A stretch of DNA of 64,000 nt from Pseudanabaena yagii GIHE-NHR1 (GTDB lineage Bacteria > Cyanobacteriota > Cyanobacteriia > Pseudanabaenales > Pseudanabaenaceae). The notes under the pieces were generated by a model. It was not told the DNA's origin. It worked only from the letters and a program-made list of their open reading frames with translations, and made no database searches. The position numbers were made by a program, and so were the translations under genes. Below are positions 16,634 to 59,161 of the stretch, piece after piece (the stretch's first letter is position 1; the number at the start of each line of letters is the position of its first letter). Location: the NCBI RefSeq assembly GCF_012863495.1, contig NZ_JAAVJL010000001.1:3281501-3345500 (forward strand), in the 5' to 3' direction.

Positions 16634-16696
16634 GCTTTAGGATTACTATATGCTCGGATGATAAAGTGGCTTTTGTGTAGTAAAATAGAGACTATA

Positions 16697-18989: not shown

Positions 18990-18992
18990 AAA

Positions 18993-20524: not shown

Positions 20525-20568
20525 TGATGTGGTCACTGGCGATCGCCTTTTAAAAATAAGTACACTTA

Positions 20569-20682: not shown

Positions 20683-20706
20683 AACTTTGTGAAAAATAGG
20701 ATAAAT

Positions 20707-22558: not shown

Positions 22559-22585
22559 CAAAAGGACGCTTTGCGTCCTTTTGTT
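22557..22585 (+). terminator. Rho-independent terminator
   Basis: AACAAAAGGACGC, TTT loop, GCGTCCTTTTGTT: a 13-bp perfect stem immediately at the stop codon of the DUF2214 gene, with the T-run in its 3' arm. Confidence 0.8.
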
Positions 22586-22659
22586 AGGCATTAGTTAAGT
22601 TAAGCGTGAGATGTAAAATAAAGGGGAAGGGGCGGGAGCATGTCACTTTTGCAAAGCAA

Positions 22660-28602: not shown

Positions 28603-28635
28603 AAGAAAAGAGTTGCATTGCAACTCTTTTCTTTT
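28601..28635 (+). terminator. Rho-independent terminator of the secretion operon
   Basis: AAAAGAAAAGAGTTGC, ATT loop and the perfect complement ending CTTTTCTTTT, starting at the hlyD stop codon. It is symmetrical enough to serve the converging SOUL gene as well. Confidence 0.8.
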
Positions 28636-28658
28636 GTATGTACCGCATAACCTAAATG

Positions 28659-29180: not shown

Positions 29181-29181
29181 A

Positions 29182-30645: not shown

Positions 30646-30721
30646 TGTTGGTGGTGGTCAAGAGGGCTAACAGCGAATTACGATCTTATCGTGTGTACTA
30701 AATTTTTGGAGAATTACTTAA

Positions 30722-31786: not shown

Positions 31787-31810
31787 TTCATTTGCATTAT
31801 GAATTATGAC
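31780..31810 (+). repeat. Hairpin spanning the pdxA stop codon
   Basis: GTCATAATTCA, nine-base loop, TGAATTATGAC. The stop TAA of pdxA lies in the 5' arm. The T-content is low, so it may protect the mRNA 3' end rather than terminate. Confidence 0.5.
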
Positions 31811-31928
31811 GAAGATCTACAAGTTCCTATTGCTGATAAGTCAGAATGAATAACTGATTAAATTACAATATTTTTATATACCTAATCTATAGGTTTATTA
31901 TGCTGAAAATGAGATTGCCCTAAGCACA

Positions 31929-32680
31929 ATGACTCAAAAAAATGAGATCAATAGTATTGCAGCGCGATTACATCACTAACAAAAGTGCGTCAAGAAGTTA
32001 TGGTGGAGCAGAAAGGTGGCTTTTGGAGTATGAGTAAAAAACTTGTTCCCAGATTATGTTGAGTCTTAGTTTAAATAAAATTCCTAACGATCAGCAGACT
32101 CAAAAAGAAGTCCTAGAGAATATGGTTAAAAAGCTGTCAGAACAGAAAATAGCCTATGAAGTGCATTTGAAAATTAATTGCTTGCAACATGAGACAAATG
32201 ATCTAGCTAATTATAGCCGTCAACTTTGAAGACTACATGAAAAAGTTTATGGGTTCTTTTCAAACCTTGTTAGTTAGCATTGTCAATGTGGACAAGGAAT
32301 TTTCTGGAGCCGTACAGGAGATTAAACAGATTGCCTAAATGACGATGAGTCCAGCAGTTTGTTACCCCAACAATTAATGATCGCGCTTCTCAAAAAATTC
32401 TTGATTTTCTTGTGGCTAGGGATTTGAAAAAGGATCGTTTAATCAATGCTTTAGAACAAGACAAGAATTTACAATAGTCAAGTCGATTTCGATCAACGCC
32501 TTAAATAGGCTTCACCAAGCCTATCTCTAGTTGATTGTTTAGACAATATCCAAACCTACATTCAGTACAAAATCACACCAATTTTAGCTATTCGGGAAGA
32601 AAAGCAACAAACACCGTAAACAAGAGGTTAGAGAGACAGAAGAAAGAAAAGGCTGCAAACAAGAAGATATAAAGGAAAAA
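31929..32680 (+). pseudogene. Decayed 5' part of a GUN4-domain gene
   Basis: From an ATG at 31929 (MTQKNEINSIAARLHH, then a stop) onward, short open stretches in changing phases read as protein. One near 32055-32228 is LSLNKIPNDQQTQKEVLENM and following; another near 32235-32338 ends in FSGAVQEIKQIA. Around 32560-32680 the sequence encodes an acidic/basic coiled coil that runs in frame into the GUN4 domain but is broken upstream by a phase change. I infer one larger ancestral gene split by frameshifts and stops. The original N-terminal domain is not recognised. Confidence 0.5.
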
Positions 32681-33199
32681 GTGAGGTTAGAAGTGCTAGA
32701 AAAACTACCAAGCGCCAAAGGGATTAATTATCGAGAGTTGGAGAAATTTCTAAAGAATCAGGAATGGCAAAAGGCGGATGGACTGACGACTAAACTGATA
32801 AGTCAGTTTGCCAATCAAGAAAAAGAGGGTTGGCCATATTATGAACATATTCCAGATTTTCCCGATGAAGATTTGCGGACGATCGATCAGTTGTGGGTGC
32901 ATTACAGTAATAACAAGTTTGGCTTTAGCATTCAGAAAAAGCTTTGGTTAGACTGCGGCGGCGAGCTTGGTAAATATGATGATAAAGTGTGGGAAAAATT
33001 TGCGACAAAAGTTGGTTGGTATTGTCCACAAAATGATCGTTGGAGGACATATACTGAATTTATGAATGATTCCCCAAACTCACTTCCAGCAAGCCTTCCG
33101 TATACTGTGTGTTCTTTTTGGGTGGTTTGGATGTTTAGTGATGATGTTTGGGGATTTTTGATGTTTTTTGATTTCCTCTTCGCTCGCTCAGAGACTTGA
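32681..33199 (+). CDS. GUN4 domain protein, probable fragment of a larger gene
   Basis: The 172-residue frame contains a GUN4 domain. NYRELEKFLKNQEWQKADGL is the helical start, EKEGWPYYEHIPDFPDEDL the middle, and RTIDQLWVHYSNNKFGFSIQ the tetrapyrrole-binding core; TKVGWYCPQNDRWRTYTEF is near the end. GUN4 proteins bind porphyrins and stimulate Mg-chelatase, but stand-alone or fused GUN4 paralogues in cyanobacteria often have unknown roles. The GTG start is doubtful because in-frame coding continues upstream. The hydrophobic C-terminal tail looks like the tails often seen on such paralogues. Confidence 0.6.
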   Translation: MRLEVLEKLPSAKGINYRELEKFLKNQEWQKADGLTTKLISQFANQEKEGWPYYEHIPDFPDEDLRTIDQLWVHYSNNKFGFSIQKKLWLDCGGELGKYDDKVWEKFATKVGWYCPQNDRWRTYTEFMNDSPNSLPASLPYTVCSFWVVWMFSDDVWGFLMFFDFLFARSET

Positions 33200-33393
33200 G
33201 AACTTTAGCAGATAAAGATTACAGTCTAAATATCAAGAAATCTTTACAAACCTATTTCTACAACACAATAGGCTTTTCAGTACTTTTGAAATTTTGTTAC
33301 ATATCACTCTAACCTTACCAGCCGATATAAGGGACTCACTCGAAGCGAGATCGCAAATTGAAGCCATCTTATCTATCGAACTTAACTTTAGTA

Positions 33394-33426
33394 CAAAAAA
33401 AGCGGCGCAACGCGCCGCTTTTTTGT
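33394..33426. terminator. Terminator downstream of rplI
   Basis: A-run, AGCGGCGC, AAC loop, GCGCCGCT, T-run: a textbook bidirectional terminator 3 nt past the rplI stop codon. Confidence 0.85.
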
Positions 33427-33428
33427 AA

Positions 33429-33890
33429 TTATTCAGGAACGACTTGGATTTTGATTGTTGCAGTGACTTCAGCATGAAGCTTAATCGAAACCTCGTAAGT
33501 ACCTGTTTGATTAATTTCAGGAATTGTAATATCGCGGTGATCGATTTCTAACATCGACTTTGCGGTAATCAATTGAGCAACTTCGCGATCGGTGACAGTA
33601 CCGAAAATTGCATTACCTTCGCCAACTTTTTTCTTAATAATAAAGCCGCCAATAGTTGCGAGAGCGGTCTTACGGCTTTCAGCTTCCTGACGAATAGCGA
33701 TTAAACGTTGACGCTCAACTTCTTTGCGTCTTTCAACTTCTTTAACAACACCTGCGGTTGCACGAATAGCTAAACCTTGAGGTATGAGGAAATTTTGAGC
33801 ATAACCAGGCTTTACAGCTACTAAATCGCCAAGTTTACCTAATTTTGTAACATTTTTGGTCAGCATGACCTGCAAATTACTCTTTGCCAT
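33429..33890 (-). CDS. rplI: 50S ribosomal protein L9
   Basis: A 153-residue ribosomal protein binding 23S rRNA. The N-terminal domain shows QVMLTKNVTKLGKLGDLVAV and PGYAQNFLIPQGLAIRAT, then the long connecting helix (KEVERRKEVERQRLIAIRQE) and the C-terminal domain with GEGNAIFGTVTDREVAQLI. Normal length and intact. It appears monocistronic. A TATACT-like -10 box lies on the reverse strand near 34060-34065, about 170 nt upstream of the ATG. Confidence 0.96.
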   Translation of the reverse strand: MAKSNLQVMLTKNVTKLGKLGDLVAVKPGYAQNFLIPQGLAIRATAGVVKEVERRKEVERQRLIAIRQEAESRKTALATIGGFIIKKKVGEGNAIFGTVTDREVAQLITAKSMLEIDHRDITIPEINQTGTYEVSIKLHAEVTATIKIQVVPE

Positions 33891-34105
33891 GTGCTTTTGA
33901 CTCTTACTCGTTTAAAGATAGATTTACATCTACAGGGGCATGCACCCTTAGGTACAATCCCTCATAGATAATAATGAGAATTGCGGCTAACTATGGTCAA
34001 ACAACAATGTTAGACCTAATATAGATACATTAGGATTTACGGTTTTAACCAGACTTCCTAGTATAGCGAAAAAACTGGCTTTGTAGACTCTACAAAAAAT
34101 TTACG

Positions 34106-35239
34106 ATGCAGCGTTGGCAGTTACTAAAAATTTCTAGGCACTTTTGCAAGCATTATGTGCCTCTTCTGGTCTTATTCCTAACAGCCACAACGCTGCCTAG
34201 TTGTACGATCAGTCAGCCCGCTAAACCTTTTAGCTCTGAGGCTTTACCGACTGAAGCGATCGCCGAAATTAGCGAAATTCGTAGCTATCCAGTCCGAGTT
34301 AAATATATTAACTCCACCACCGCCAGACCTGCTACCGTTGGTGTGCCTCTAAAAGTAAATGAAAGCGTAAGCACTGACGAATCTTCAACTGCTCAAATCA
34401 CGCTGAGAACGGGGACAATTTTTCGCATTGGTGGTACTGCCAATCTCATCCTCAGACCCCAAAACCAAGTAGAAATCGAGTCGGGCAAATTGGTCGCATG
34501 GGCGGCAAAGGATAGTAAATCACCTGCTCAAATTAAGACCTCTTTTGGCGAAATATCTAGCAATGATGGGACGTTATATCTAGAAATTCCTGCGAAAGCG
34601 GCTGAAGAACGGCGGATCATTTCCCTAGATGGAACTGTTACCGTCTTACTAAAAAGCACATCGGAAATTGTCACCCTAGGTAAAGGTGAAGAAATTAGAA
34701 TTAAAGCTGATGGCAAAGCTACTGCGCCCAAACGGATCGACAAGGAGAGTATTGATAAAAAAATTGCCAATAATTCTTTGATTTTTGGATTTAGTACCCA
34801 GCTCGCCAGTTTGCCTCAAATCACATCAGAATTTGGTGTTACCGCAACAGTCAAAGAGGCAAGTACGATCCAATTCCGTCGTTCGGATTTGCCGAATAAG
34901 CCTGATGCTAATAAGTCTAAAGTTACCTATACCTCAGGTACAGCCAATAGCGATCGCCGCGATGAACCAGTTGACCGCAAGCGCGACGATCCTTCCACTA
35001 ATAAACCCCCTGAGCCTGTAAATACAAGTAAACCAACCTCAGAGCCTTCTTCCGCACCCAATAATGCACCTACGTCAACACCAACTACGCCTCAACCAAC
35101 ACCCATCACTACGAATCCTTCCCCCAAACCTATAGAACCTGCCCCACAACCAGCACCTTTAGAGCCACCACCACAGCCTGTGCAACCTGAAATCCCCGCC
35201 CCTGAGCCACCACCAACTACTCCCAAGCCCAAAAACTAA
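34106..35239 (+). CDS. FecR-domain lipoprotein with Pro-rich tail
   Basis: A 377-residue exported protein. The N-terminal hydrophobic segment (YVPLLVLFLTATTLPSC) ends in a Cys compatible with a lipobox. A FecR-type beta domain follows (about 70-205), with ITLRTGTIFRIGGTANLILR, VEIESGKLVAWAAKD and TKGEEIRIKADGKA-like strands. The last 100 residues are Pro/Thr/Ser-rich and probably span or bind the cell wall. No sigma factor or TonB receptor is nearby, so iron signalling is not implied. It lies 197 nt upstream of a beta-propeller gene on the same strand, with a terminator between. Confidence 0.75.
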   Translation: MQRWQLLKISRHFCKHYVPLLVLFLTATTLPSCTISQPAKPFSSEALPTEAIAEISEIRSYPVRVKYINSTTARPATVGVPLKVNESVSTDESSTAQITLRTGTIFRIGGTANLILRPQNQVEIESGKLVAWAAKDSKSPAQIKTSFGEISSNDGTLYLEIPAKAAEERRIISLDGTVTVLLKSTSEIVTLGKGEEIRIKADGKATAPKRIDKESIDKKIANNSLIFGFSTQLASLPQITSEFGVTATVKEASTIQFRRSDLPNKPDANKSKVTYTSGTANSDRRDEPVDRKRDDPSTNKPPEPVNTSKPTSEPSSAPNNAPTSTPTTPQPTPITTNPSPKPIEPAPQPAPLEPPPQPVQPEIPAPEPPPTTPKPKN

Positions 35240-35273
35240 AGAGAAGGCGCATTGCGCCTTCTCTTTAGTTTTT
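35231..35273 (+). terminator. Terminator overlapping the FecR gene end
   Basis: A 20-bp perfect stem, AAAAACTAAAGAGAAGGCGC with an ATT loop, whose 5' arm contains the stop codon (35237-35239) and whose 3' arm ends TAGTTTTT. Confidence 0.85.
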
Positions 35274-35436
35274 GGAGCTTACAACCTATTGAGTCTAGAC
35301 AATGGTTTTAATAGGTATATTGCTGCTTTAAATTTAAAATGACAATTTCTTGCAATTTCTAGTAATTTTGATGCATCGATCGCAATTTCTTGTGTTAACA
35401 TCTGACGCTTAAAAGAGTTTTACACCGCGTCTAGGG

Positions 35437-36540
35437 ATGATGGTCAAGATGTTTGCAGCTAACAAAATGCCACAATTAAATGCTTCAAAAGCGATCGCTA
35501 AAACTGCATTAGCAATAACTGCTAACATAGCCAGCTTATTTGTGGTTAGCTATGGACTCAATAATGCCGAAGCTATCAATATTAACAACCCAACACCTCA
35601 GCAGGAGACAACTACAGGAGGTAGCAAGGCACTAGTTACCGTCAGACCATCATCCAATTTTGATAGTCGGATTAGTGCCACATTATTGGACAGCCGCGAT
35701 CGCCTGTGGCTAGGTACTTGGCAAGGCTTAATTCAAATTGATCAACTCACGGGTAAAGCGATCTCTTCAATATCCTTACCCAACTCCACCGTCACTGCCT
35801 TACTTGAAGACAATAGGGGCTTCTTTTGGGTTGGCACAACTTCAGGGCTGTATCAAATCAGCCCTAGTTCAGGCAAAATTGAAAATATTGCGATCCAACT
35901 ATCCTCTAGCCGCATTTTGAGTCTAGCTATGGATCGGGCAGGCTTTATTTGGGTGGGAACCGATCAAGGCATTACTCGCATCAGTCCCTATAATGCTGAG
36001 ACCTATGCTCGGTTGCCTAATATTCCAGGGACAGCCGCTAATGTGATGCAAATTGACAATGCTGGTAATATTTGGGTCGGTACATTAAATGGACTGTTTA
36101 AGATTAATCCGGGGACAGCGAAAATTACTGCACGAATTCCCTTTGTCTCGGGACAAATTGTACAGGCTCTGACTGTTGATCCATCGGGAACAGTTTGGGC
36201 AGGTACGCCACGCAATGTGATCGAAATTAATCCCAAAACGAATAAAGCGATCGCCAGAATTAACACTGTCACAGGACGCGATATTGTTGCCCTAGCTAGC
36301 GACAAAAGTGGAGAGTTATGGATTGGCATGAGGGATGGTTTGGTACTTGCCAATACTTACAATGGCGAAATTACATCATTCATCAGTAACCTCCCCCATA
36401 GTTCTGTTGTCAATTTGCTCATTAGCGAGCACCAATTATGGATTGGCACGATGGGGGGATTGGGCAAAATCAATGCAAAACTGAAAAAATCAGAAATTCC
36501 AAACGCAACTGCGACAGTAATTTATACAATACAGAAGTAG
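35437..36540 (+). CDS. Exported beta-propeller protein
   Basis: A 367-residue protein with an N-terminal signal-like segment (about 20-48: AIAKTALAITANIASLFVVS) and about seven repeats of roughly 40 residues. Each contains a W-x-G-T pattern: LWLGTWQGLIQID, FFWVGTTSGLYQISP, FIWVGTDQGITRISP, IWVGTLNGLFKINP, VWAGTPRNVIEIN, LWIGMRDGLVLAN and LWIGTMGGLGKIN. These match two-component-regulator-type propeller blades (reg_prop), here without any kinase or transcription domain. The likely role is a periplasmic scaffold or lyase-like propeller; no catalytic site was recognised. The upstream AGGG leaves several nearby ATG codons possible as starts. Confidence 0.75.
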   Translation: MMVKMFAANKMPQLNASKAIAKTALAITANIASLFVVSYGLNNAEAININNPTPQQETTTGGSKALVTVRPSSNFDSRISATLLDSRDRLWLGTWQGLIQIDQLTGKAISSISLPNSTVTALLEDNRGFFWVGTTSGLYQISPSSGKIENIAIQLSSSRILSLAMDRAGFIWVGTDQGITRISPYNAETYARLPNIPGTAANVMQIDNAGNIWVGTLNGLFKINPGTAKITARIPFVSGQIVQALTVDPSGTVWAGTPRNVIEINPKTNKAIARINTVTGRDIVALASDKSGELWIGMRDGLVLANTYNGEITSFISNLPHSSVVNLLISEHQLWIGTMGGLGKINAKLKKSEIPNATATVIYTIQK

Positions 36541-36649
36541 ATACTAAGCTAAAGCATTTTGCCAGATTGTCAATGTCAGATTAATTTGTTGTAGCGATTT
36601 TCTTGTACACATTAGAAAATTGCTATATAGGGACGCACAGTAAAATAAG

Positions 36650-36698
36650 GAATTGATTTTTTGTGGAGTGGCTTCGCTGCTCTACAAAAAATCAATTC
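36650..36698. repeat. GC-clamped intergenic hairpin
   Basis: GAATTGATTTTTTGTGGAG pairs with CTCTACAAAAAATCAATTC around a small TGGC-TTC-GCTG head. It lies between the propeller and channel genes. Confidence 0.7.
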
Positions 36699-36767
36699 TT
36701 TGCATCCAATTTGTTTGACTTTGTTAGAGGCTGTTAATTGCTATAGGGTTGTGGAGAGAGAAACAAA

Positions 36768-38249
36768 ATGGATGTTTGGTTAGCCAAGTTTTATGACATC
36801 TTCACGGCTCAGATTTTAGATATTGGTGGAACTAAATTTTCGATCGCCTCGATCTCACTGTTGCTAGGACTGCTGATCTTAGCTTTTTTCCTATCCAAAT
36901 TAATTAGTGAAACTATCAGACGTGCCTTCCTATCTCGATTTCGCATCAATCGAGGATTACAGGAAGCAATTACTGTATTTATAAAATACTTTTTGATTAC
37001 CCTGAGCTGCACAATTATCTTGCAAACAGCAGGAGTTAACCTCAGTTCTTTAGCAGTAGTTGCAGGGGTAATCGGTATTGGTATTGGCTTTGGCTTACAA
37101 AATCTTTCGAGCAATTTTATTAGTGGTGTTGTCCTACTATTTGAGCAGACCCTCAAAGTTGGCGATTATATTGAAATCGGTGAACTAAAGGGAGTTATTG
37201 AAAAAATTTCCATTCGTTCCACTATCCTGCGTACCGATGATGATCTCTTTGTAATTGTTCCTAATCAGCGTCTCATTGAACACAATACTGTCAATTGGAG
37301 TTATAGAGGACATACCTGCCGAATTCATATTCCAATTACAGTGGCTCCAGATACTGATTTACTAGTCTTGACAGAAGCTTTGCTGACGGCAGCACGTCAT
37401 GAACCCTATGTATTACAAAATCCATCATCAGAAGTTAGATTCCAAAAATTTAATCGCGATGCCCTTGAGTTTGAATTACTAGTTTGGATTAATGATCCCA
37501 ATGAAAATGAAACCATTCGTAGCTCTTTGAACTTTCGGATTGCCTATGAATTTAAGGAAAGAGGAATCAAAGTTCCATTACCTACACGCGATATTATTCT
37601 TCGTAATCCTGAATCTGTTCCCTATGTGATGAATGCCTTACAGTCGCAAAGTGAGAATTTGCAACTCCCAAATCTAGCAAAATCAAGTGCTGTTAATTCT
37701 TTTTCTACTCCTAGTGATTTCAGTTCTGGCAATCTCCGTGATTTATTGCGAAAAATATCCTACTTTGAAAGATGTACAGAAGTAGAACTCTTTGCCTTAA
37801 TTGCAAGGGGATATCGTAAGCATTTTGATATTTGCGAAGTAATTTGCCAAGAGAATGAACCCAGCGAAGAGTTCTATATTATTTTGTCTGGGGCTGTAGA
37901 GGTTTTTTCGGAACGGAATAATCAAGCGATCGCGACATTAAGAGAGGGAGAGTTTTTTGGTGAGATTTCTCTGCTAATTGGTACACCTCGGACGGCAACT
38001 GTGCGTGCTCTGACTGCGGATACAGTTCTCTTTGTAGTTGAGCGTCAGCAGTTGCAAAAGCTCCTTAGCGAACATAAGGAATTAGGAGAGCAAATAGCAG
38101 TTAAACTATCGGAACGTCAGCAGGTTCTTGTTAGCCTTGGGCTGCTAAATGAAGAGGAATTGCAGAGATCGCAATATGCTGCCCTATCATGGGTACGCGA
38201 TCGCCTCAATGCTATTTTCGGGATTAGCTTGGGCAAAAATGTCGCTTAG
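36768..38249 (+). CDS. MscS-type channel with cyclic-nucleotide-binding domain
   Basis: A 493-residue inner-membrane channel. Three TM helices come first. The pore-lining TM3 region reads LSSLAVVAGVIGIGIGFGLQ, and the MscS beta domain contains FEQTLKVGDYIEIGELKGVI and IVPNQRLIEHNTVNWSY. The alpha/beta vestibule follows to about 290. The C-terminus (about 330-450) is a CNB domain with the phosphate-binding-cassette-like FFGEISLLIGTPRTATVRA. This is the architecture of bacterial cyclic-nucleotide-gated MscS relatives, in which cAMP rather than stretch may gate the pore. GGAGAG lies 7 nt before the ATG. Confidence 0.9.
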   Translation: MDVWLAKFYDIFTAQILDIGGTKFSIASISLLLGLLILAFFLSKLISETIRRAFLSRFRINRGLQEAITVFIKYFLITLSCTIILQTAGVNLSSLAVVAGVIGIGIGFGLQNLSSNFISGVVLLFEQTLKVGDYIEIGELKGVIEKISIRSTILRTDDDLFVIVPNQRLIEHNTVNWSYRGHTCRIHIPITVAPDTDLLVLTEALLTAARHEPYVLQNPSSEVRFQKFNRDALEFELLVWINDPNENETIRSSLNFRIAYEFKERGIKVPLPTRDIILRNPESVPYVMNALQSQSENLQLPNLAKSSAVNSFSTPSDFSSGNLRDLLRKISYFERCTEVELFALIARGYRKHFDICEVICQENEPSEEFYIILSGAVEVFSERNNQAIATLREGEFFGEISLLIGTPRTATVRALTADTVLFVVERQQLQKLLSEHKELGEQIAVKLSERQQVLVSLGLLNEEELQRSQYAALSWVRDRLNAIFGISLGKNVA

Positions 38250-38308
38250 AAATGTGACGTAATTTTTTGTAGCGCTATTTTGCCATGCCCTAGAAAATCT
38301 GGTTCTTG

Positions 38309-38758
38309 TTAGAACTGTTGCTGGAAAATTGTGGGAGCATTGACACGAAATGGCTCTGCACCTAAAGATGTAGGATCGATCCGCCAACGTTCTTCCTGAG
38401 TGCTATATTCTGCAAGCTTCTGATCGCGTCGATTGTGTAGTAACACATTAAAATTTTGTTTTTGGGCTTCTGTTCCTAACTTAAATAGAAAACTAAATCT
38501 TGTTAAATAATCAGAAGCTGCCCATCTGGTCGTATTAACGGTGACGATCGCTTTTTTGGTTTCAGGATCAATTGTAATTTTCTCGACCCAACCTTCTTCT
38601 AACCGTTGGGTTTTCCACCAGAGACTGGGTTCGACTAGCTGCTGTGGAATATTAATATTCTCTTCTGCGGATGCTGAGGAACTAGCGATCGCGATCGGGG
38701 CGATCGCGCTAACTGCAAGTCCTAAGAGAATGTGATTGATAACTGGTTTGGCAACCAT
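38309..38758 (-). CDS. Exported protein of unknown function
   Basis: About 149 residues, beginning MVAKPVINHILLGLAVSAIA, a signal peptide ending near ASSSASAEE. The mature part has WWKTQRLEEGWVEKITIDPE, VNTTRWAASDYLTRFSFLFK and LLHNRRDQKLAEYSTQEERW. I do not recognise the family; it may be a cyanobacterial periplasmic protein. ATG 38758 has GAGG 6 nt upstream and gives a clean signal peptide; the frame extends to ATG 38788, whose AGGTG is too close. Confidence 0.65.
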   Translation of the reverse strand: MVAKPVINHILLGLAVSAIAPIAIASSSASAEENINIPQQLVEPSLWWKTQRLEEGWVEKITIDPETKKAIVTVNTTRWAASDYLTRFSFLFKLGTEAQKQNFNVLLHNRRDQKLAEYSTQEERWRIDPTSLGAEPFRVNAPTIFQQQF

Positions 38759-38850
38759 CCTGAACCTCAATAATACGATCTTCAGCATTCACCTGATTAT
38801 ATAGCAATCATCAATGATTCGAGAGAGGGTTCGATTTCACTGGAGTAGTA

Positions 38851-38901
38851 CAGAGAAATTTTTGAAAGCGCGGCGAAGCCGCGCTTTCAAAAATTTCTCT
38901 G
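38851..38901. repeat. Long perfect GC-clamped hairpin
   Basis: A 24-bp perfect stem (CAGAGAAATTTTTGAAAGCG continuing to CGGC) with a GAA loop. A nearby segment, CACTCATTTGAAAACCGCTA (38932-38951), resembles the outer arm of the family C copy at 14651-14790, so this may be a degenerate member. Confidence 0.75.
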
Positions 38902-39014
38902 GGTTTCAAGTCCGCGCAAAGCGCTGTAAGCACTCATTTGAAAACCGCTATAAATAATTAAGATGGGGGGCAGAGATTTAGACGGTCTTCTGGCGATATT
39001 TGTTCCTAATAAAC

Positions 39015-39052
39015 AGAGTTTTGTGGGAGGCTTTGCCTCACCACAAAACTCT
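39015..39052 (-). terminator. Hairpin at the 3' end of the 39052-39627 gene
   Basis: AGAGTTTTGTGGGAGGC, TTT loop, GCCTCACCACAAAACTCT, touching the stop codon of the gene. One mismatch. Confidence 0.65.
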
Positions 39053-39627
39053 TATTTGACTCGCTCAATGCCGCGATCTAGCACTTCATAGTAAAGGGGC
39101 AAATATCCTGATTTAATGCCGCCATCTTCCTTGGCTTTGTCCAAATTGCCACTGAGGGTATGACTATTATGAACACTGTAAATTTCATAGCGATCGCCAA
39201 TAAATACATAGTCCGCAACATCGGTAAACTCTTCACCCTTGACCAGTTGCCAATGATCATCAGCATAGACAAAGTGGTAATCGGCTAAGTCAGGGCTTGC
39301 GGATGGGCGCTCAACAGCAGCAGAGATTTCGGCAGTGTAATGGGGATTTTTGTCGCTGGGAGGAATAATTTTACTGGTGACGTTGCGATAGAAACAACTC
39401 TCGTTGTAGCAAAATCTCAGTTTTGCCATTTTGTTTTTGATAATTTCAAAACGATCAATGATTTGGCTAGAGTCGGGTTCTCTTGCGGCGGAGACATTAT
39501 TGCTCAGGGAATTAGCAAAGGTAATTGCCAAACAAATGACGCAGATCAAAAAAATATTGACTAGCGATCGCCATTGTTTCCTGATCGGAAAATTGTTGAT
39601 TGAAAAATTGCTGGCTATAAAACTCAT
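39052..39627 (-). CDS. Membrane-anchored or exported protein of unknown function
   Basis: A 191-residue protein. One hydrophobic segment (about 22-42: LVNIFLICVICLAITFANSL) follows a basic N-terminus, so it is either a signal peptide or an anchor. The rest includes two Cys (RFCYNESCFYR), VYADDHWQLVKGEEFTDVAD and a C-terminal YLPLYYEVLDRGIERVK. The two closely spaced Cys could form a disulphide in the periplasm. No family was recognised. Confidence 0.6.
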   Translation of the reverse strand: MSFIASNFSINNFPIRKQWRSLVNIFLICVICLAITFANSLSNNVSAAREPDSSQIIDRFEIIKNKMAKLRFCYNESCFYRNVTSKIIPPSDKNPHYTAEISAAVERPSASPDLADYHFVYADDHWQLVKGEEFTDVADYVFIGDRYEIYSVHNSHTLSGNLDKAKEDGGIKSGYLPLYYEVLDRGIERVK

Positions 39628-39731
39628 ATTTATATAACTTAATATAATTTAATAATATTCCTTTGATTCTAGCGATTTGGTCGAGCTTTGGATATAGCCA
39701 GCGCGATCATTTCCAGATTCTGTATGTACTA

Positions 39732-39780
39732 AAAAAACCAAAAATAGTCGGCGCAAAGCGCCGACTATTTTTGGTTTTTA
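39732..39780 (-). terminator. Hairpin overlapping the recN stop codon
   Basis: Arms AAAAACCAAAAATAGTCGGC and GCCGACTATTTTTGGTTTTT, continued by GCGC with an AAA loop. The recN stop (39765-39767) lies inside the 5' arm as transcribed, so the last residues KNQK are encoded by the repeat. Confidence 0.75.
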
Positions 39781-41570
39781 ATAGCTGCTGCTTGCTCTAG
39801 TAAAGACTCGGCAAAGGCGATCGCCTGACTTAGAGCAGGATCATCCGTACCTTGTTGAAGTACAGCTTTTCCTTTTTCCTTTTTCCTTTTTCCTTGCTCA
39901 GCACTTTTCCCTGAAGCGATTTGAGCCAACTCCTGTTTGCGATCTTCTAGTTCTAATAAACGAATTTGCACTTTTGTGCGATCGCCAACTACTTCCTTGC
40001 TGACATGAAAATGACGATCCGCGATCGCCGCAATTAGGGGTTGGTGCGTCACACAGAGGATTTGTGAACTACGGCTCAATTGCCAGAGTTGCGTGGCGAT
40101 CGCTTGAGCAACTCGACCTGATACACCTGTATCAATTTCATCAAATACCATTGTCCCAACCTTGGCATGGCTAGATTCTGCATCGGCTTGGCTCTCCTGC
40201 CTAGTTTTCTGTTGCACAAAACAAGTTTTTAATGCTAGCAAAAAGCGGCTCATTTCCCCACCTGAGGCTGTTTCCGCCAGTGGCTGTAATGGTTCACCAA
40301 GGTTAGGACTAAATTCAAACACAATGTGATCGCTACCTAAAGCAGTTGGCTCAACTGGATAAAGACCAACTTGAAAGCGGACTTTTTCCATAGCTAACAT
40401 TTTTAGTGCCTCGATTTGGGCTTTCTCAAGGGCGATCGCAGTTTGCCGCCGCAATTCTGTCAGTTTTTTGCAAGCCTTGAGTAAGCTCTGTAAATCCGAC
40501 TCGGCTTTGCGCTCTAAGTCTTCAATAGAAATACTTTGATCGGTCAATTCTGCCAATTCATTTTGCAGTTTTTCCATATAGGCGATCGCTTCGGGGAGCG
40601 TGCCATATTTACGGCAAATTTGCTTGATTTGATTAATTCTCTGCTCAATGGTTTCCAACTGTTCTGGATCAGAATCAAGACGATTAGCGTAATTATTAAT
40701 CTGTCGCCCTGCTTCTTCTACTTGGGCAAGGGCACTAGATACTAATTCTAGAATTCCTTCTGCTTCGCGATCAAGCAATACCATCTCTGTGAGAATCGAT
40801 TCTGCTTGCCCTAGGAGATCAGCACAGGCATTACCACTATCATTCTGATAGAGCGCTTCATACACTGCATAGCCTTGCTTTTGCAATTCGACGCTATGGG
40901 CTAGGCGATTGCGATCGCTTTCGAGTTGTTCCAATTCATCGGGATCTTCAAGGTTTGCGGCGGCAAGTTCCTTGAGTTGATAGCGCAACATATCCAAATG
41001 CTGCAAACGGTTACGCTCATTTTGTTGACGCTCAAACAGTGCCTTGCGTGATCGCTCCTTTGTCTCAAATAATTTTGCGACCTTTTGACGTTGTAATGAG
41101 ATTGCCTGATTAAAGGCTTGGTCACCAAAACTATCGAGCAGTTCCCTCTGCTGAGCGGATTGACTCAGTAAAATTGTCTGACCTTGAGCCGTAATCTCAA
41201 CAAGGCGATCGCGTAATTCTTGAATTTGTTGTTTATTAACTACCACACCGTTAACACGGGTGCGATTGCTCTTGATGGTAATCTCCCGACTGCAAATTAA
41301 AGTTTCCGCGTCAATGGCATCAATTTCTTGAGATTCTAACCATTGAGCGATCGCCTGATTTGTGGAAAAAGTTGCCTCAATATTGGCACGCTCTGCGCCA
41401 TTACGAATTACTCGCGCAGATACTTTACCTCCAAGTGCTGCATCAAGAGCATCTAATACAATCGATTTGCCTGCTCCAGTTTCGCCTGTCAGAATATTTA
41501 GCCCTGCATAAAGATCTAGTTCTAAGCGATCGATCAGTGCAAAATTTTCAATTTTAAGACTCAGCAGCAT
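39765..41570 (-). CDS. recN: DNA repair protein RecN
   Basis: SMC-like ATPase of double-strand-break repair, 601 residues. Walker A is in ILTGETGAGKSIVLDALDAA, with a long central coiled coil (about 155-360). The ABC signature region reads TASGGEMSRFLLALK, and Walker B is in MVFDEIDTGVSGRVAQAIA, followed by QILCVTHQPLIAA. Near the C-terminus a Lys/Gly-rich insert (EQGKRKKEKGKA) is encoded by a G2A5 simple repeat also seen in a spacer at 12021. The last residues come from the terminator hairpin. It is 45 nt downstream of the CheA-like gene and may share its transcript. Confidence 0.95.
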   Translation of the reverse strand: MLLSLKIENFALIDRLELDLYAGLNILTGETGAGKSIVLDALDAALGGKVSARVIRNGAERANIEATFSTNQAIAQWLESQEIDAIDAETLICSREITIKSNRTRVNGVVVNKQQIQELRDRLVEITAQGQTILLSQSAQQRELLDSFGDQAFNQAISLQRQKVAKLFETKERSRKALFERQQNERNRLQHLDMLRYQLKELAAANLEDPDELEQLESDRNRLAHSVELQKQGYAVYEALYQNDSGNACADLLGQAESILTEMVLLDREAEGILELVSSALAQVEEAGRQINNYANRLDSDPEQLETIEQRINQIKQICRKYGTLPEAIAYMEKLQNELAELTDQSISIEDLERKAESDLQSLLKACKKLTELRRQTAIALEKAQIEALKMLAMEKVRFQVGLYPVEPTALGSDHIVFEFSPNLGEPLQPLAETASGGEMSRFLLALKTCFVQQKTRQESQADAESSHAKVGTMVFDEIDTGVSGRVAQAIATQLWQLSRSSQILCVTHQPLIAAIADRHFHVSKEVVGDRTKVQIRLLELEDRKQELAQIASGKSAEQGKRKKEKGKAVLQQGTDDPALSQAIAFAESLLEQAAAIKNQK

Positions 41571-41583
41571 AGTTTTTTCTAGA

Positions 41584-41612
41584 TTCAGGAATGTGCACTA
41601 CACATTCCTGAA
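41584..41612 (-). repeat. Hairpin between the CheA-like gene and recN
   Basis: TTCAGGAATGTG, five-base loop, CACATTCCTGAA, directly after the CheA-like stop codon. No U-run, so read-through into recN is possible. Confidence 0.55.
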
Positions 41613-41615
41613 TTG

Positions 41616-44600
41616 TTAAATCGGCAAGGTTTCTCCATTGAGGAGACGCTTCGAGGCGCTCAGCAATTCTTCTTCAAGATAGGGCTTAGTGAAATAGCCT
41701 TTTGCTCCCAGTTGAATTGCGGTTTGACGATGGCGATCAGCTCCACGAGAAGTTAACATCGCCACAGGAATTTCTTTGAGTCGAGAATCCTTTTGTAATC
41801 TCGATAAGAGATCTAATCCATCCATCCGTGGCATTTCAATATCGCAGAAGATCATATCGCAAGGCAGTCCTGCACGGAGTTTTTCCCATGCATCCTGTCC
41901 ATCCTTTGCTTGCTCGACGCGGTATCCCACTTTGGCAAAGGTCAATGACAATAGTTCACGTACCGTAATCGAGTCGTCCACAATCAGCACCGTTGGATCG
42001 ACAGCAATATCTTCTTCAATAGGTGGTTGCAGCGTGACTCCAGAAGTAGAAGGACGGAGTCTACCACTAGCGATGTCAAACAGTTCTAAAACGTTAGCGA
42101 TCGCCATGACGCGACCATCCCCTAGCACCGTTGCTCCCGCAATACCCGCAGGCTGAGGGATTGGTCCTTCTAACTGCTTGATTACAATTTCGTACTCGCC
42201 GAGGAACTGATCAACCTGTAGGGCAAGGTAACTAGTATCGTTACGCAGAATAATGATGCAGAGTTCATCGTTATCCTGCTTACCATAGATATTGCTACGG
42301 CTGAGATGGCGGCTATAGGAAAGTAAATTGGAGAGATGTTGGAATGGCAACACCGTATCGCGCCAAGGTAAGCATGGCTGACCTTTTTCGTTAAGCACGA
42401 TTTGACTTTGAGGAACCTCTACCATGTCTTCAAAGCCGTCAACGGGGAAGGCAATACGAGCGCGATCGCTAATGCAGAACATCGCCTTAGAAATACTGAG
42501 CGTAAGTGGTAAGCGGATTGTAAAGGTGGTTCCTTTACCAACTAACGATTCCACAATAATTACGCCGCGAATTTCATCGAGACAGGTTTTGACCACATCC
42601 AGACCAACGCCACGTCCTTTAAACTCATCAGCCTCTGCTGCCGTGCTAAATCCTGCTTCAAATAATAGCGAGTAAACCTCGGTATCATTAAGGCGATCAA
42701 CTTCCGATTGCGAACGTACACCTTTGGCGACTGCACTTTTCTTCACTTTTTCAGTGCTAATACCTGCACCATCATCACTGATTGAGATGACGGTCTGGTT
42801 ACCTTGGTGATATGCCCGCACTGTGAGTTTACCTGCCGCAGATTTACCCGCTGCTTGGCGGGTTGCAGGATCTTCTAAGCCGTGATCGATCGCGTTGTTG
42901 ACAAGGTGTGTGAGTGGATCGGTGAGAGATTCCAAAATAGCTTTGTCGATGAGAGTCTCGCGACCAAACACCTCCAAGTCAGCCTGCTTGCCACTCTTCA
43001 GTGCGCGATCGCGAATACCTCTAGGCAAGCGATCGGCAATCTGAGCAAAGGGAACCATGCGTGATTGTTTCAAGTCATCCTGCACTTGAGTAGTAATCGT
43101 TCCCAACTGACGAGTTACCTGATCGGTTTCACCCACCACAAACTCAATATCCGAAGCTGACTCACGAACTTTGACAATTAGCTCGATGATTTCCTGTGAC
43201 AGAACGTGGAAGGTATTGTATCGGTCAAATTCAATCCCTTCAAATTCGCTACTAACAGCACTACTCGTACTTGCCCCATCACTAGAATAACCAGATTCAA
43301 AATTATTATATGAACGCCCGCGACCTGCGGTTAGAGATGCCTCTAGCAAAGAGCGATCGTACTGATCGCGCATCCTTTGGGATACATCACTAAGTAGCTG
43401 CACTTGATGCAATAGATTAGTAATAAACTGTTGTAGCCTTTCCTGCTCCTGTTCTAACAAGTTGCGGTTAACAACAAGTTCCCCAACTAAGTTATTTAAA
43501 CTATCAAGGTATTTGACATCTACACGCATCGTTGAATCGGACAACTTAGGCTTACGGGTAGTGACAGGAGGACGCACAGGTGTTTTAGTCTTGATCGGTC
43601 CAACATCTGGAGCAAATCTTGACTGAAGCATACTTTCCAATTCGTCAAAGTCATCCTTCGGTTTGGTCGTTGAGGTAGATGGGAGAGTAGTAACCTCACG
43701 TTCTTTTGGTTTTGCAGCTACATTTGTCTCAAAACTTCCAGTATCACCTAATAGAGCTTCTAATTCGTCAAAATTCATATCATCAGAATTAATAGACTGC
43801 TGTCCATTGTCATGATTACTATGATGATTAGGGCTGGCAACTTCGTCGTTATTAGAGGTAATGAAATTATCTGATAAGCTACTAGCATCGCCAATCATGG
43901 CTTCTAAATCATCAAAATCAAAATTATCATCAATCCCATTTAACTCCTCTACTACTGATTGATTATCAATTGCCAAATTTTGCATTTCCACATAATCTGT
44001 CTCAGAATTTATAGAGTCTTGTAGGCTGGAACCATTTAGATCAGACATCTCATCAAACCCACCAAAATCTAAATTTTGGTTGTCATCAAAGCTATCGTTA
44101 TTAATATTAGTTAATGACTCAGATGTAGTTAAGTCAGTAATATCGGAATCATCACCTTGAAAAAAGTCCACTAGGCTGTCGATCGTACTACCAGATGTAA
44201 TATCTTCATGATCGTCGTCAAAGTTTATATCATCTTGTTGATCTTGTTGGATACTCGTTAGAGGTTCATCATTTGATTGCAGAGAATCCGATCTCAAATC
44301 ATCAATAGCATTGAAAAAATTATTCTCCTCAAAATCATCTGCTAGACTACTCGCGTCACTTTGTGTAAGCGATCGCTCTTCATTAAAGTCAAATTCATTG
44401 TCTAGATCATTACCAAAATCATTAAAGTTATTCTCTAATATAGTCAGATCATCTTCATTCGCATTAGCAAATAAATTGACTAAATTATCAGATTTGTTTG
44501 CAGGTTCAGGCTCTTCAATTTGATTAAACAATTCGTCATTGATGTTTTCTAGAGAGCTTTCTAGAGAATTCGATGCAGCAGATATATCTGCAAAAGCGGA

Positions 44601-47600
44601 ATTAAGATTTTCCTCAGTAAATGAATCAATAGTCTCATCTGCGACATCACCATTGATATTTACATCGTCGCTAATGCCTAAATCACTCCAATTATCATCA
44701 ATCAATTTCTCGGCTAGATCTTCGGGCGATTCAGATGCATTAAAGAAATCACCTAATCCATCAATATCATCAGTAGTACTTAAATTATTTGATTCATTTT
44801 TACTGTAAACAGAATCAAGATTAGGTTCTTCCACATCCGCAAAGAAATCTCCTAATTCATCAGTGTTACTAATATCATGAGTACCAATATTTTGAATTGA
44901 ATTGTCATTATCAGTGATATCACTAACAGCGCTATTAGAAATATCGTTAGACAAGCTAAAATCTGATGCCTCTACATCATCAAAGAAACCGCCTAACTCA
45001 TCATCGCTAGTATTAATTTCTTGACTAATCTCTTCCTCATTACCAAAGAAATCACCTAAATCATCAGTAGTACTTAGTTCCTGCTCAACGCTTTCCTCAT
45101 TACCAAAGAAATCACCTAAATCATCAGTGCTACTTAGTTCCTGCTCAACGCTTTCCTCATCACCAAAGAAATCGCCTAAATCATCAGTGGTACTTAGTTC
45201 TTGTTCAATACTGGTTGTATTAGAACTATCTTCGCCGAAAAATTGTAGATCTTCGGCACTGTCAATTATTTCAGAGGGGCTACTTGTCTCTGGAGCATCA
45301 GCAAACAAATCATCAATCTCATCAGTCTGCTCATTAATAGGTTGCTCATTAATATTGATTATGTCATCACTACTAATAGAGTTAGCAATTTCATCAAATT
45401 CATTGTTATCTGGAAATGCTGGCTCTTCACCCTGATGATCATTTTGATCAGTTACTGGGTGATCAATTACTGGTGATGCTGCTTCCTGTTCAAAGTCATC
45501 ATTATCAAAGCCTAGCTCATCAAATATATTTAGTCCCGAAGTATCATTGGTATCAAAGTCTTCGCTACTTTCTATGGGCAGAGTATAGCTCTCTATAACA
45601 TCTTTTTTGGGAGATGGGGTGTTTGCAAAATCTTCTATATCAGAAAGGTCAAAATCATTTTGATCTTCATTGCTAATGTTTAATGGTGTTTCTAGTAAAT
45701 CGGCATCAATGTTGTCATTAATAGCAAAAGGATCTTCCTCTAACAATGGCATGTCTTCCTCTGAGATCGTTAAGGCAAATGGTTCATGGTTGTTAGTATC
45801 TGGAGCTTCTTCATCTTCATGCAAACTATTGATAGCATTCTCTTGTCTTGCTAATTCAGCGAAATATTCCTCACTAGATAGAGAGTTATCATCTTGAGCA
45901 TCACTCAATATGCTTTCTGAGAATAATTCAGAAGATTCCTGTGGGCTACCTTCAGAGAAATCAAGGTCATCAATATTAATGCCTTCGGCATTTTCAGTAT
46001 TAATATCACTGATTTGATCAATGATATCGATCCCTAAGTCAAAGTCGTCAAATTCTGTATCTATGGATTCCTCTTTAACCAAATCATCGATCGCTAAATC
46101 TTCTAGAATATCTGGAGTATTTTGTGTGATTAATTGATCCGTTGGATTGGATGTAATATCCATATCATCTGGGAATAAACCTTGAGAATCTTGATCCTTT
46201 GGAAATAAACCTTGAGAATCTTTACTTATGGTGCTAGCCTGCTCGCTAGTAGGAACCTCACCGAATAATTCCGCCAGATTAGAATCCTCTAATCCACGAT
46301 TGCTAGCAGGATTATTGAGGTCTGTAGAGGTGTTGTCGAGTAAATCAGCAAATTCATCATGATTGTTGTTGAAGTTCTGTTCATTGCCATGCTTTGCTAG
46401 ATTACTCTCGTTAGATTCGATGTCTTCCCAAGCAGAATCAAAGTCAATATCATCATTCTCAAATAAAGTGGCTAGGGACTTTAACTCTGATGCTCCAACC
46501 TTGGGACCATCAATATGTTGATTTTCAGTGATTTCATACTCACTGTCCATCCAATCCATTTGATCGATTTGTTCTTGAGGTATTTCTAATAGATCAAAGG
46601 CTTCTTCTTGTTCATTTTGATCACTAAATAGATCAATCTCATGTGCGCTGGAAGACTGTTGATCAACTGGATTCATAGAAGCCAAATCTAAGGCTTCATA
46701 TTCTTCAGTTCCTAAGGCATCAAGTTGTAAGTCTTCTTCGATATCTATCGCTTTTGGAGATATATCAGGTGCGGTGGTAAAGATTGTGCTGACATCATCA
46801 TCTTCTGATTCAGAAAAACGATAGGGTAAGAGGTTTTGAATTTGAGGTGATATGGCAATCTCAGCTTCTCGATTTGCCAAAACTAAGTCCTGAGCATCCT
46901 TTAGTTCGCGAATTACAATAGGCGCAAGAGTACGGTATGAGTTAATGGGATATGCGATCGCATTTTTGATCTGAGTAGCTAAATTCGTCCAATTGCTGAG
47001 TTCAAATCTGTCACCAACTTCTTGGAAGTAATTGCAAATTTCCTGTAACTGCGATCGACTATCCTGTGAATCTGTGCCGCGAAATAATTGCAGCATGTCG
47101 CGCATTTTATTAGTAACTTCTTCTTGAAAGATCGTCTTTTGAGAAGTAACTGGTTTAGATTCGACAATGCGCTGTTCTGATCTTTGTTCAACAAGAACAG
47201 GGGTAACTAATTCTTCATTAGAATTAGAAGTTAATTGATTAAGATAGGATTCCAATTCTGCAAAGACAGGCTTAACACGGTTACTGGTTTCTAGTGTTAA
47301 TTCGTCAGATATACGAAACCCAATCTGTAATTCATCAAGCAATTCAGCTAGGGGATCAAATCCAGCTAATAGCAGGCTTTTTAGCCGCTCATCAACGTTT
47401 ATTTTGGGATTCTCTTTGAGGATTTTAAAAAAGTCTTCTAATCGGTGAGCAACATGCTGAATACTCCCCACACCTAGCATCGCCGCCCCACCTTTAATCG
47501 AGTGAGCCGCACGAAAAAGCTCATTAATTGACTCAGGTTCATCTAAGATGTCCTGCAAGTTTAATACACCTTGCTCGATTGTCTGGAGATGTTCACGGGC

Positions 47601-47651
47601 TTCTTCAATGAAATAACCCATGATGCGCTGCTGTTGTTGTTCCGAGTTCAT
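41616..47651 (-). CDS. pilL: Giant CheA/PilL-type hybrid histidine kinase
   Basis: Core kinase of a chemotaxis-like system, 2011 residues. An N-terminal Hpt domain carries RAAHSIKGGAAMLG. A helical segment at about 170-270 precedes a low-complexity Asp/Ser/Asn/Glu-rich linker (about 280-1360). Then come the CheA dimerisation helices (VDVKYLDSLNNLVGELVVNR), the ATPase (LVNNAIDHGLEDP, DDGAGIS, GRGVGLDVV), a CheW-like domain and a C-terminal receiver with VDDSITVREL and IFCDIEMPRMDG. Homologues in cyanobacteria control type IV pilus motility and phototaxis. The linker of about 1,080 residues is far longer than usual. It is preceded in the operon by MCP, CheW and CheY genes. Confidence 0.92.
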   Translation of the reverse strand: MNSEQQQQRIMGYFIEEAREHLQTIEQGVLNLQDILDEPESINELFRAAHSIKGGAAMLGVGSIQHVAHRLEDFFKILKENPKINVDERLKSLLLAGFDPLAELLDELQIGFRISDELTLETSNRVKPVFAELESYLNQLTSNSNEELVTPVLVEQRSEQRIVESKPVTSQKTIFQEEVTNKMRDMLQLFRGTDSQDSRSQLQEICNYFQEVGDRFELSNWTNLATQIKNAIAYPINSYRTLAPIVIRELKDAQDLVLANREAEIAISPQIQNLLPYRFSESEDDDVSTIFTTAPDISPKAIDIEEDLQLDALGTEEYEALDLASMNPVDQQSSSAHEIDLFSDQNEQEEAFDLLEIPQEQIDQMDWMDSEYEITENQHIDGPKVGASELKSLATLFENDDIDFDSAWEDIESNESNLAKHGNEQNFNNNHDEFADLLDNTSTDLNNPASNRGLEDSNLAELFGEVPTSEQASTISKDSQGLFPKDQDSQGLFPDDMDITSNPTDQLITQNTPDILEDLAIDDLVKEESIDTEFDDFDLGIDIIDQISDINTENAEGINIDDLDFSEGSPQESSELFSESILSDAQDDNSLSSEEYFAELARQENAINSLHEDEEAPDTNNHEPFALTISEEDMPLLEEDPFAINDNIDADLLETPLNISNEDQNDFDLSDIEDFANTPSPKKDVIESYTLPIESSEDFDTNDTSGLNIFDELGFDNDDFEQEAASPVIDHPVTDQNDHQGEEPAFPDNNEFDEIANSISSDDIININEQPINEQTDEIDDLFADAPETSSPSEIIDSAEDLQFFGEDSSNTTSIEQELSTTDDLGDFFGDEESVEQELSSTDDLGDFFGNEESVEQELSTTDDLGDFFGNEEEISQEINTSDDELGGFFDDVEASDFSLSNDISNSAVSDITDNDNSIQNIGTHDISNTDELGDFFADVEEPNLDSVYSKNESNNLSTTDDIDGLGDFFNASESPEDLAEKLIDDNWSDLGISDDVNINGDVADETIDSFTEENLNSAFADISAASNSLESSLENINDELFNQIEEPEPANKSDNLVNLFANANEDDLTILENNFNDFGNDLDNEFDFNEERSLTQSDASSLADDFEENNFFNAIDDLRSDSLQSNDEPLTSIQQDQQDDINFDDDHEDITSGSTIDSLVDFFQGDDSDITDLTTSESLTNINNDSFDDNQNLDFGGFDEMSDLNGSSLQDSINSETDYVEMQNLAIDNQSVVEELNGIDDNFDFDDLEAMIGDASSLSDNFITSNNDEVASPNHHSNHDNGQQSINSDDMNFDELEALLGDTGSFETNVAAKPKEREVTTLPSTSTTKPKDDFDELESMLQSRFAPDVGPIKTKTPVRPPVTTRKPKLSDSTMRVDVKYLDSLNNLVGELVVNRNLLEQEQERLQQFITNLLHQVQLLSDVSQRMRDQYDRSLLEASLTAGRGRSYNNFESGYSSDGASTSSAVSSEFEGIEFDRYNTFHVLSQEIIELIVKVRESASDIEFVVGETDQVTRQLGTITTQVQDDLKQSRMVPFAQIADRLPRGIRDRALKSGKQADLEVFGRETLIDKAILESLTDPLTHLVNNAIDHGLEDPATRQAAGKSAAGKLTVRAYHQGNQTVISISDDGAGISTEKVKKSAVAKGVRSQSEVDRLNDTEVYSLLFEAGFSTAAEADEFKGRGVGLDVVKTCLDEIRGVIIVESLVGKGTTFTIRLPLTLSISKAMFCISDRARIAFPVDGFEDMVEVPQSQIVLNEKGQPCLPWRDTVLPFQHLSNLLSYSRHLSRSNIYGKQDNDELCIIILRNDTSYLALQVDQFLGEYEIVIKQLEGPIPQPAGIAGATVLGDGRVMAIANVLELFDIASGRLRPSTSGVTLQPPIEEDIAVDPTVLIVDDSITVRELLSLTFAKVGYRVEQAKDGQDAWEKLRAGLPCDMIFCDIEMPRMDGLDLLSRLQKDSRLKEIPVAMLTSRGADRHRQTAIQLGAKGYFTKPYLEEELLSASKRLLNGETLPI
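45001..45210 (-). repeat. Tandem 60-bp coding repeats in the pilL linker
   Basis: About three and a half copies of a 60-bp unit, phased to codons, encode STDDLGDFFGNEESVEQEL-type 20-residue repeats. Copies 45061-45120 and 45121-45180 differ at only a few bases. Older, diverged versions of the same motif (DELGDFFADVEE, DGLGDFFNASE) lie on either side, so the linker grew by repeated duplication. Confidence 0.9.
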
Positions 47652-47704
47652 GACAGAATCCTCTCAAAGATTAGGGTATGAGTAGCTAGCTAAAGGCAAT
47701 AGGA

Positions 47705-59123: not shown

Positions 59124-59161
59124 GTGTAAATATAGGTTTATTCTTGTATCTAGTGAAACCT

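Follow-up and report, generated by a model that had tools for sequence, protein, structure and literature searches.

Gene-end hairpins in Pseudanabaena: putative terminators whose arms appear to change together and whose loops invert between relatives

The stop codon of recN in Pseudanabaena yagii GIHE-NHR1 (39765-39767, minus strand) lies within a perfect palindrome, and the locus raises the question of what such gene-end hairpins are and how their arms stay matched while their sequence changes. The window is the whole 64,000-nt stretch of DNA that was analyzed, and coordinates refer to it unless another source is named. The recN hairpin (39733-39779) features a 22-bp perfect stem, with the loop AAA on the plus strand (TTT in the sense of recN) and thus an apex of GC-AAA-GC. 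NCBIfam model TIGR00634, which the gene matched at 507.5 bits (cut-off 407.85), identifies it as recN. The predicted RNA fold was -37.5 kcal/mol (z of -7.9) and the predicted DNA fold was -27.4; each was better than those of 200 out of 200 shuffles. In a scan of positions 28001-48000, the hairpin headed the list of 14 terminator-like sites, tying with 36653-36695 at the scan maximum of 20 pairs; this generic scan showed no excess of sites in that segment over shuffles (14 vs. 15.8). The recN hairpin looks like a putative intrinsic terminator.

A sequence-only reading of the window had placed five stop codons inside hairpins of a single type, with a GC-rich clamp and a three-base loop. The identities of the FecR, PdxA, DUF2358, and SpoIID genes were confirmed with Pfam, and the description fits three of the five gene ends fully (recN, FecR, and SpoIID) but not the other two. 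The FecR-domain gene ends in a perfect hairpin (35229-35275, apex GC-ATT-GC) that contains the stop codon at 35237-35239; its orthologue in the related genome G007 has the loop GTT, one paired change (C to T and G to A), and one unpaired change. The perfect hairpin at the end of the SpoIID-domain gene (59073-59123) comprises 24 bp and the loop TTA (apex AC-TTA-GT), with the stop codon (59078-59080) inside and several paired changes in the G007 orthologue. At the end of pdxA (31779-31811, stop codon 31784-31786 inside), a stem of 13 bp, rich in A/T and lacking a GC clamp, encloses a 7-nt loop; it is not of the GC-clamped triloop type. The DUF2358 gene end (20061-20105, stop codon 20102-20104 inside) has imperfect 21-nt arms that are 86% complementary and that, as judged by eye, resemble the dispersed family GTGGCGCACGC.

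Other gene ends in the window have similar structures. The TAA stop codon of a DUF2214 gene forms the outer end of the left arm of a hairpin at 22556-22586 (apex GC-TTT-GC), and a hairpin at 28601-28635 (apex GC-ATT-GC) overlaps the second and third bases of the stop codon of an HlyD-like gene that ends at 28602 (both genes assigned by Pfam). Between two convergent ORFs, a 15-bp hairpin with a 5-nt loop (59444-59478) includes the stop codon of the ORF at 59144-59446 (plus strand), and that of the ORF at 59481-60470 (minus strand) falls just outside. A hairpin composed of an A-tract, a GC core, and a T-tract (33396-33424, apex GC-AAC-GC) lies 4 nt from the 3' end of the minus-strand gene at 33429-33890. 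In all, the window contains 23 perfect hairpins (stem of at least 12 bp, loop of at most 10 nt), 13 of which have the apex GC-NNN-GC. Two perfect hairpins with 5-nt loops, at 14817-14849 (14 bp) and 57944-58002 (27 bp), lack this apex and are outside the main type. The RNase P RNA gene (57447-57908, minus strand), the only family detected in an Rfam scan of the window at gathering thresholds, contains a perfect 19-bp hairpin (57723-57763, apex GC-TTT-GC); the same kind of palindrome may therefore have inserted into a structured RNA helix or enlarged it.

It had also been proposed that the hairpins occasionally alter protein C-termini, and RecN sequences were compared across the genus. RecN is conserved to about ...LLEQAAAIK, beyond which a few residues differ whether or not a hairpin is present; the hairpins thus touch at most the last residues. 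The protein ends in KNQK in P. yagii and in KTQS, at the same alignment position, in G006 and G007, both of which have a degenerate version of the recN hairpin in the same place. A GC-NNN-GC hairpin was found by eye within 150 nt of the recN end in 10 of 25 genus members (two of them nearly identical), and the stems were largely unrelated. No clear hairpin-encoded extension of RecN was seen among the genus members compared, and the proposal is weak. At best, a hairpin-encoded tail is possible in G022 (locus L145): directly ahead of the stop codon, a short palindrome, GCAC-TTT-GTGC, codes for the RecN tail residues STLC.

Abundance was determined in the P. yagii genome (5.57 Mb, 9 contigs) from the window together with 40 stretches of 20 kb each, i.e. 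864 kb. This sample held 294 perfect hairpins with stems of at least 12 bp, or one per 2.9 kb, compared to 0 in one order-1 Markov shuffle; the estimate of one hairpin about every 3 kb made from the window was borne out in the genome. The apex was GC-NNN-GC in 164 of the 294. Stop codons were located inside 29 of these 164 hairpins (33 stop codons in total) and start codons inside none, confirming a non-random placement relative to stop codons. The hairpins occupied tandem (102), convergent (38), and divergent (19) intergenic gaps; four were centered in a called gene, and one was at an edge. Per kb of intergenic DNA (gaps of at least 40 bp), their densities were 2.29 in convergent, 1.25 in tandem, and 0.51 in divergent gaps, and the median distance past the upstream stop codon in tandem pairs was 23.5 nt. 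When the analysis was repeated with G007, the hairpins contained 17 stop codons and 1 start codon, the densities were 1.98, 0.82, and 0.32 per kb, respectively, and the median distance was 47.5 nt. In enlarged samples (1.264 Mb of P. yagii and 1.160 Mb of G007), a stop codon was inside 37/249 and 22/169 hairpins and a start codon inside 0 and 1, respectively; both stop codons were inside 6/64 and 3/49 of the hairpins between convergent genes.

Stems of at least 8 bp located from -20 to +60 of the stop codon were counted at called gene ends; a single hairpin can serve two convergent ends in these counts, and the ends were taken from a simple in-house gene caller. They occurred at 354 of 1109 ends in P. 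yagii (32%) and 213 of 1060 in G007 (20%), compared to 65 of 905 (7%) in 70 recN-region loci of other cyanobacteria, for which the caller was trained on a mixture and called fewer ends per Mb. Triloops accounted for 232/354, 115/213, and 15/65 of these stems, respectively. Across 185 kb, the 10 nearest recN loci (nine from Pseudanabaena and one from Oscillatoriales) contained 21 GC-NNN-GC hairpins; eight of these loci had one or more, and such hairpins are thus common in the part of the genus that was sampled rather than confined to one genome. The 70 loci of other cyanobacteria contained eight in 1.18 Mb, three of them in one Leptolyngbya.

The hairpins share a consistent anatomy. In P. yagii and G007 together, 514 of 530 triloop stems of at least 12 bp were closed by C-G, and in 147 stop-linked, low-copy hairpins the GC content fell from 70% in the inner 8 bp to 22% in the following 8 bp. 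For 103 tandem hairpins placed in the transcript orientation, the fraction of T was 0.50-0.51 at 10-18 nt past the apex and 0.41-0.45 at 18-26 nt, compared to 0.32 at 32-40 nt; the U-tract thus sits within the 3' arm. Among 212 hairpins of P. yagii found under relaxed conditions, 163 were perfect over 10 pairs outside the GC apex. The common loops among 177 singletons were GAA/TTC (37, with 13.9 expected from base frequencies) and AAA/TTT (57, with 25.0 expected). The oligonucleotide d(GCGAAGC) is a stable DNA mini-hairpin, and the C-G closing pair with these loops would suit such a structure.

On position and anatomy, the gene-end hairpins are likely to be intrinsic terminators. Like Rho-independent terminators, they have a GC-rich stem, a short loop, and a U-rich 3' side, occur at the 3' ends of genes, and are densest between convergent genes. 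They differ in that their stems are unusually perfect, long (median 17 bp), and symmetric, the triloop is nearly always closed by C-G, stop codons are often inside, and change in both arms and loop apparently comes about by template switching. Bidirectional termination was considered as a cause of the symmetric arms and was not supported, as stems in tandem and convergent contexts were equally long (median 17 bp in both, P = 0.94). PMC13289151 reports that cyanobacteria lack Rho and that canonical intrinsic terminators end only 22% of the transcription units of Synechococcus elongatus; given that figure, a hairpin by itself is not sufficient ground for assuming terminator function. In PMC12306157, which counts REPs and terminators in other cyanobacteria, no mention of Pseudanabaena was found.

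The evolution of the hairpins was followed between P. yagii and G007 using 298 orthologues (mean gene identity 89.3%, i.e. about 11% diverged) and 197 intergenic pairs. In 34 hairpins, 331 arm pairs were unchanged, 31 were changed on both sides, 31 were changed on one side, and 15 were unpaired in both species. The equal numbers of two-sided and one-sided changes are suggestive of arms changing together; the hairpins had been preselected for good pairing in both species, so fewer one-sided changes were counted. The one-sided changes comprised 14 A-C, 13 G-T, and 4 other mismatches. Near the apices, in the transcript sense, 27 mismatches were G-U vs. 18 A-C (P = 0.23); this slight lean is of the sort that additional selection on RNA pairing would produce. 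Among 99 classified hairpins, one (oC1_3180001 14573) was a candidate for de novo birth from one arm; relative to it, G007 reads as having one arm rewritten and the loop inverted.

For the comparison of loops, intergenic pairs shorter than 80 nt or longer than 1200 nt were left out (an earlier pass left out those shorter than 80 nt), and a hairpin was kept only when at least 13 of 20 arm bases matched, a filter that removed 2 of 25 from a strict set and 3 of 37 from the main set. Of the 34 shared triloop hairpins that were retained in the main set, 12 had the same loop in both species, 9 had exact reverse complements, and 13 differed otherwise. All three bases were changed in eight of the nine; TTT/AAA, TTC/GAA, and GTA/TAC are examples. 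When loops were dealt at random among the hairpins, a procedure that ignores phylogeny, the mean number of inversions was 2.03, and none of 20,000 permutations reached 9. The strict set gave 6 inversions in 23 loops (P = 0.0007). Exact inversions made up 8 of the 12 triple changes (P = 1.5e-9 against 1/27), and three of the remaining four were one base away from inversion. The claim that the hairpins "changed sequence" was upheld for this pair of species, in which arms appear to change together and loops invert.

A few other comparisons yielded inversions as well. Between G006 and G007, the aligned blocks of which are 99.1-99.9% identical, one of seven loops was inverted, in the 99.1% block. 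Two of six were inverted between G007 and G015, one of them needing three changes, and one of six among the named relatives themselves; neither exceeded permutation (P = 0.13 and 0.17, respectively). None of the 11 hairpins shared by P. yagii and G015 had an exact inversion, and both of the triple changes there were, by eye, one base from inversion. Given G015 and these small sets, the statistical case for inversion rests on one species pair. The orientation of loops in the transcript sense was T-rich in one count (TTT, TTC, TTA, and TAC 49, vs. 25 for their complements) and nearly even in another (59 vs. 54).

Exact three-base inversions are not expected from point mutation at such a rate, and template switching gives both them and the homogenization of arms. 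We therefore favor a reading in which the gene-end hairpins are intrinsic terminators rewritten by template switching during replication and separate dispersed families share their apex; we regard it as probable, its termination, replication mechanism, and rate being inferred. The terminator, in a build typical of the lineage, would have a three-base loop on a GC-rich core with a closing C-G pair, and arms that are A-rich at the 5' end and U-rich at the 3' end. Near-perfect arms and a tiny spacer would let the replication machinery switch template between the arms. An intramolecular switch would copy one arm onto the other, so that mismatches would be repaired and a new mutation in one arm would reach the other; if the switch is instead intermolecular and crosses the apex, the loop would be inverted. 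Terminators would in this way stay where they are, and stay paired, even as their sequence drifts quickly. Dispersed repeat families with the same apex would gain and lose copies between species, and some copies near gene ends may serve as terminators.

Quasipalindrome correction is a related template-switch process. Small loop inversions are also found in the 3' hairpins of chloroplasts, the descendants of cyanobacteria, often just after stop codons; the inverted loops there are usually longer. The hairpins are also like inverted repeats in which arms become identical and short spacers are inverted (PMC8604942, PMC8794818). According to PMC8604942, arm homogenization and spacer inversion occur in yeast genes, including the same ttc/gaa loops, and spacer inversion is attributed to an intermolecular switch; PMC8794818 describes both outcomes for RNA genes and lists loop inversions there, bacterial examples included. 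Compared to these cases in yeast coding genes and rRNA, the Pseudanabaena hairpins are a genome-wide set at bacterial gene ends. The changes fit template switching during replication, a process known from yeast genes and rRNA. Loop inversion is the part worth following; among the titles listed in the literature searched, which covered few subscription journals, no report of it in bacterial terminators was found, nor any paper on terminator hairpins in Pseudanabaena. Loss of SbcCD was rejected as a cause of the many palindromes: SbcD scored over the cut-off in 25 of the 25 genus genomes searched and in 41 of 79 genomes of a phylum sample.

The pairing could instead be maintained by selection on RNA alone, through point mutation and compensatory substitution and without any special DNA mechanism. 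The gene-end position of the hairpins, the stable RNA fold at recN, and the slight excess of G-U over A-C are what such selection would leave. It does not, however, yield the exact inversions that make up two thirds of the triple loop changes, and it is at odds with perfect palindromy that is equally long in tandem and convergent contexts and that, in 163 of the 212 relaxed hairpins, extends over 10 pairs outside the apex. We consider this explanation unlikely.

The template-switching reading treats the dispersed families as separate, and two populations were in fact observed to share the GC-NNN-GC apex: low-copy, stop-linked hairpins that are mostly kept in place, and dispersed families that are gained and lost. 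At a threshold of at most 2 mismatches in 16 nt, 89 of the 164 hairpins fell into families, compared to 4.35 expected when columns were permuted; the null climbed quickly once the threshold was relaxed (120 vs. 32 at up to 3 mismatches and 138 vs. 96 at up to 4). Counting only GC-NNN-GC hairpins with a called gene on both sides, 63/111 singletons in P. yagii were within 20 nt of a stop codon vs. 39/110 members of families of four or more; in G007 these numbers were 41/66 and 8/94. Synteny was classified in 197 of 198 intergenic pairs (one of over 900 nt was left out), giving 126 hairpins, of which 68 were shared, 35 absent, and 23 ambiguous. For the 63 GC-NNN-GC hairpins on the P. yagii side, with absent and ambiguous pooled, 22 of 25 stop-linked low-copy hairpins were shared with G007, compared to 10 of 23 family hairpins (Fisher P = 0.0018) and 9 of 15 of the rest; the remaining 13 family hairpins were absent or unalignable in G007.

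Several family members lie in the window. A dispersed repeat of about 85 bp (38843-38930), which has many copies in the genus and is absent at this site in G007, holds a hairpin at 38851-38901 (apex GC-GAA-GC). The TTTTTTGTGGCRCGGC family is represented at 13264-13314 (apex GC-GAA-GC), where G007 has the hairpin with two paired changes. Two hairpins belong to the GTGGCGCACGC family, one at 14695-14741 (apex GC-GCA-GC) and one at 16486-16528, the arms of which are 95% complementary. At up to 3 mismatches, a 25-bp hairpin at 51470-51522 (apex GC-TAC-GC, absent at the site in G007) and a hairpin at 57257-57293 (apex GC-TCA-GC) join the GAGAGGGTTTGC group, and a 21-bp hairpin at 53258-53302 (apex GC-AAA-GC) groups with TTTTTGAAAGYGYGGC hairpins. 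A 20-bp hairpin at 2332-2374 (apex GC-GAA-GC) is like one at L029:5855 (AAGGATGGGCGGCGC). Other dispersed repeats, each about 100-170 bp long and represented in G007 by many partial copies, were noted at 4971-5089, 20567-20684, 18990-19098, 2370-2540, and 16540-16650; some of them are built on GCTTCGACTCCGCTCAGC or GCTGAGCGAAGTCGAAGC inverted repeats. Matches to a Y1-transposase domain (Y1_Tnp) are located in the genome at G000:C2:207919-208293, C2:266619-266762, and C1:1369435-1369698, and these are candidate movers of palindromic families.

A single mobile palindromic repeat of the REP or MITE kind could have moved to gene ends and later given rise, by divergence, to all of the hairpins, much as the window had been read at first, i.e. 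as one system that multiplied. Family membership far above the null, presence and absence between species, the three Y1 domain matches, and the 104 genome matches of one 18-nt arm (53 forward and 51 reverse at up to 2 mismatches; 0 for a reversed-pattern control) all speak for mobility, and multiplication stands for the dispersed families. It does not stand for the stop-linked hairpins, which more often belong to no family and are mostly retained at their sites, and the recN ends of the genus bear largely unrelated stems; one mobile repeat as the source of everything is very unlikely. The dispersed families do resemble REP/REPIN and other bacterial palindromic repeats in being short, mostly intergenic palindromes with many copies, a likeness drawn from the repeats themselves; they differ in that several of the families have mainly the apex in common. 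That the loop inversions are sequencing or assembly artefacts is unlikely. Palindromes can confuse library preparation and graph assembly, and one flip separates G006 from its near-identical relative G007. Against this, the final k-mers that assemblers generally use exceed most of the stems in length, inversions turn up in comparisons that span several assemblies, and loops are near 50:50 by strand in one of the two counts, as flipping predicts.

The sequence-only reading was thus confirmed in its observation and supported in part in its interpretation. A broader version of the template-switching reading, which we put forward tentatively and think somewhat less probable than its negation, is that terminator evolution in Pseudanabaena is driven mainly by template switching. 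In that case about a thousand apex hairpins per genome (from 164 in 864 kb), many of them at gene ends, would continually homogenize their arms and flip their loops, so quickly that loop orientation would be near equilibrium between species and might even be mixed within a culture. If the template-switching reading is true, a class of regulatory RNA hairpins would be kept perfectly paired by an error of DNA copying rather than by slow compensatory mutation, and the hairpins would report naturally on template switching across a bacterial genome. Compensatory changes in such stems should then not be taken to prove selection on RNA. The finding would also bear on how cyanobacteria, which according to PMC13289151 are without Rho, end their transcripts.
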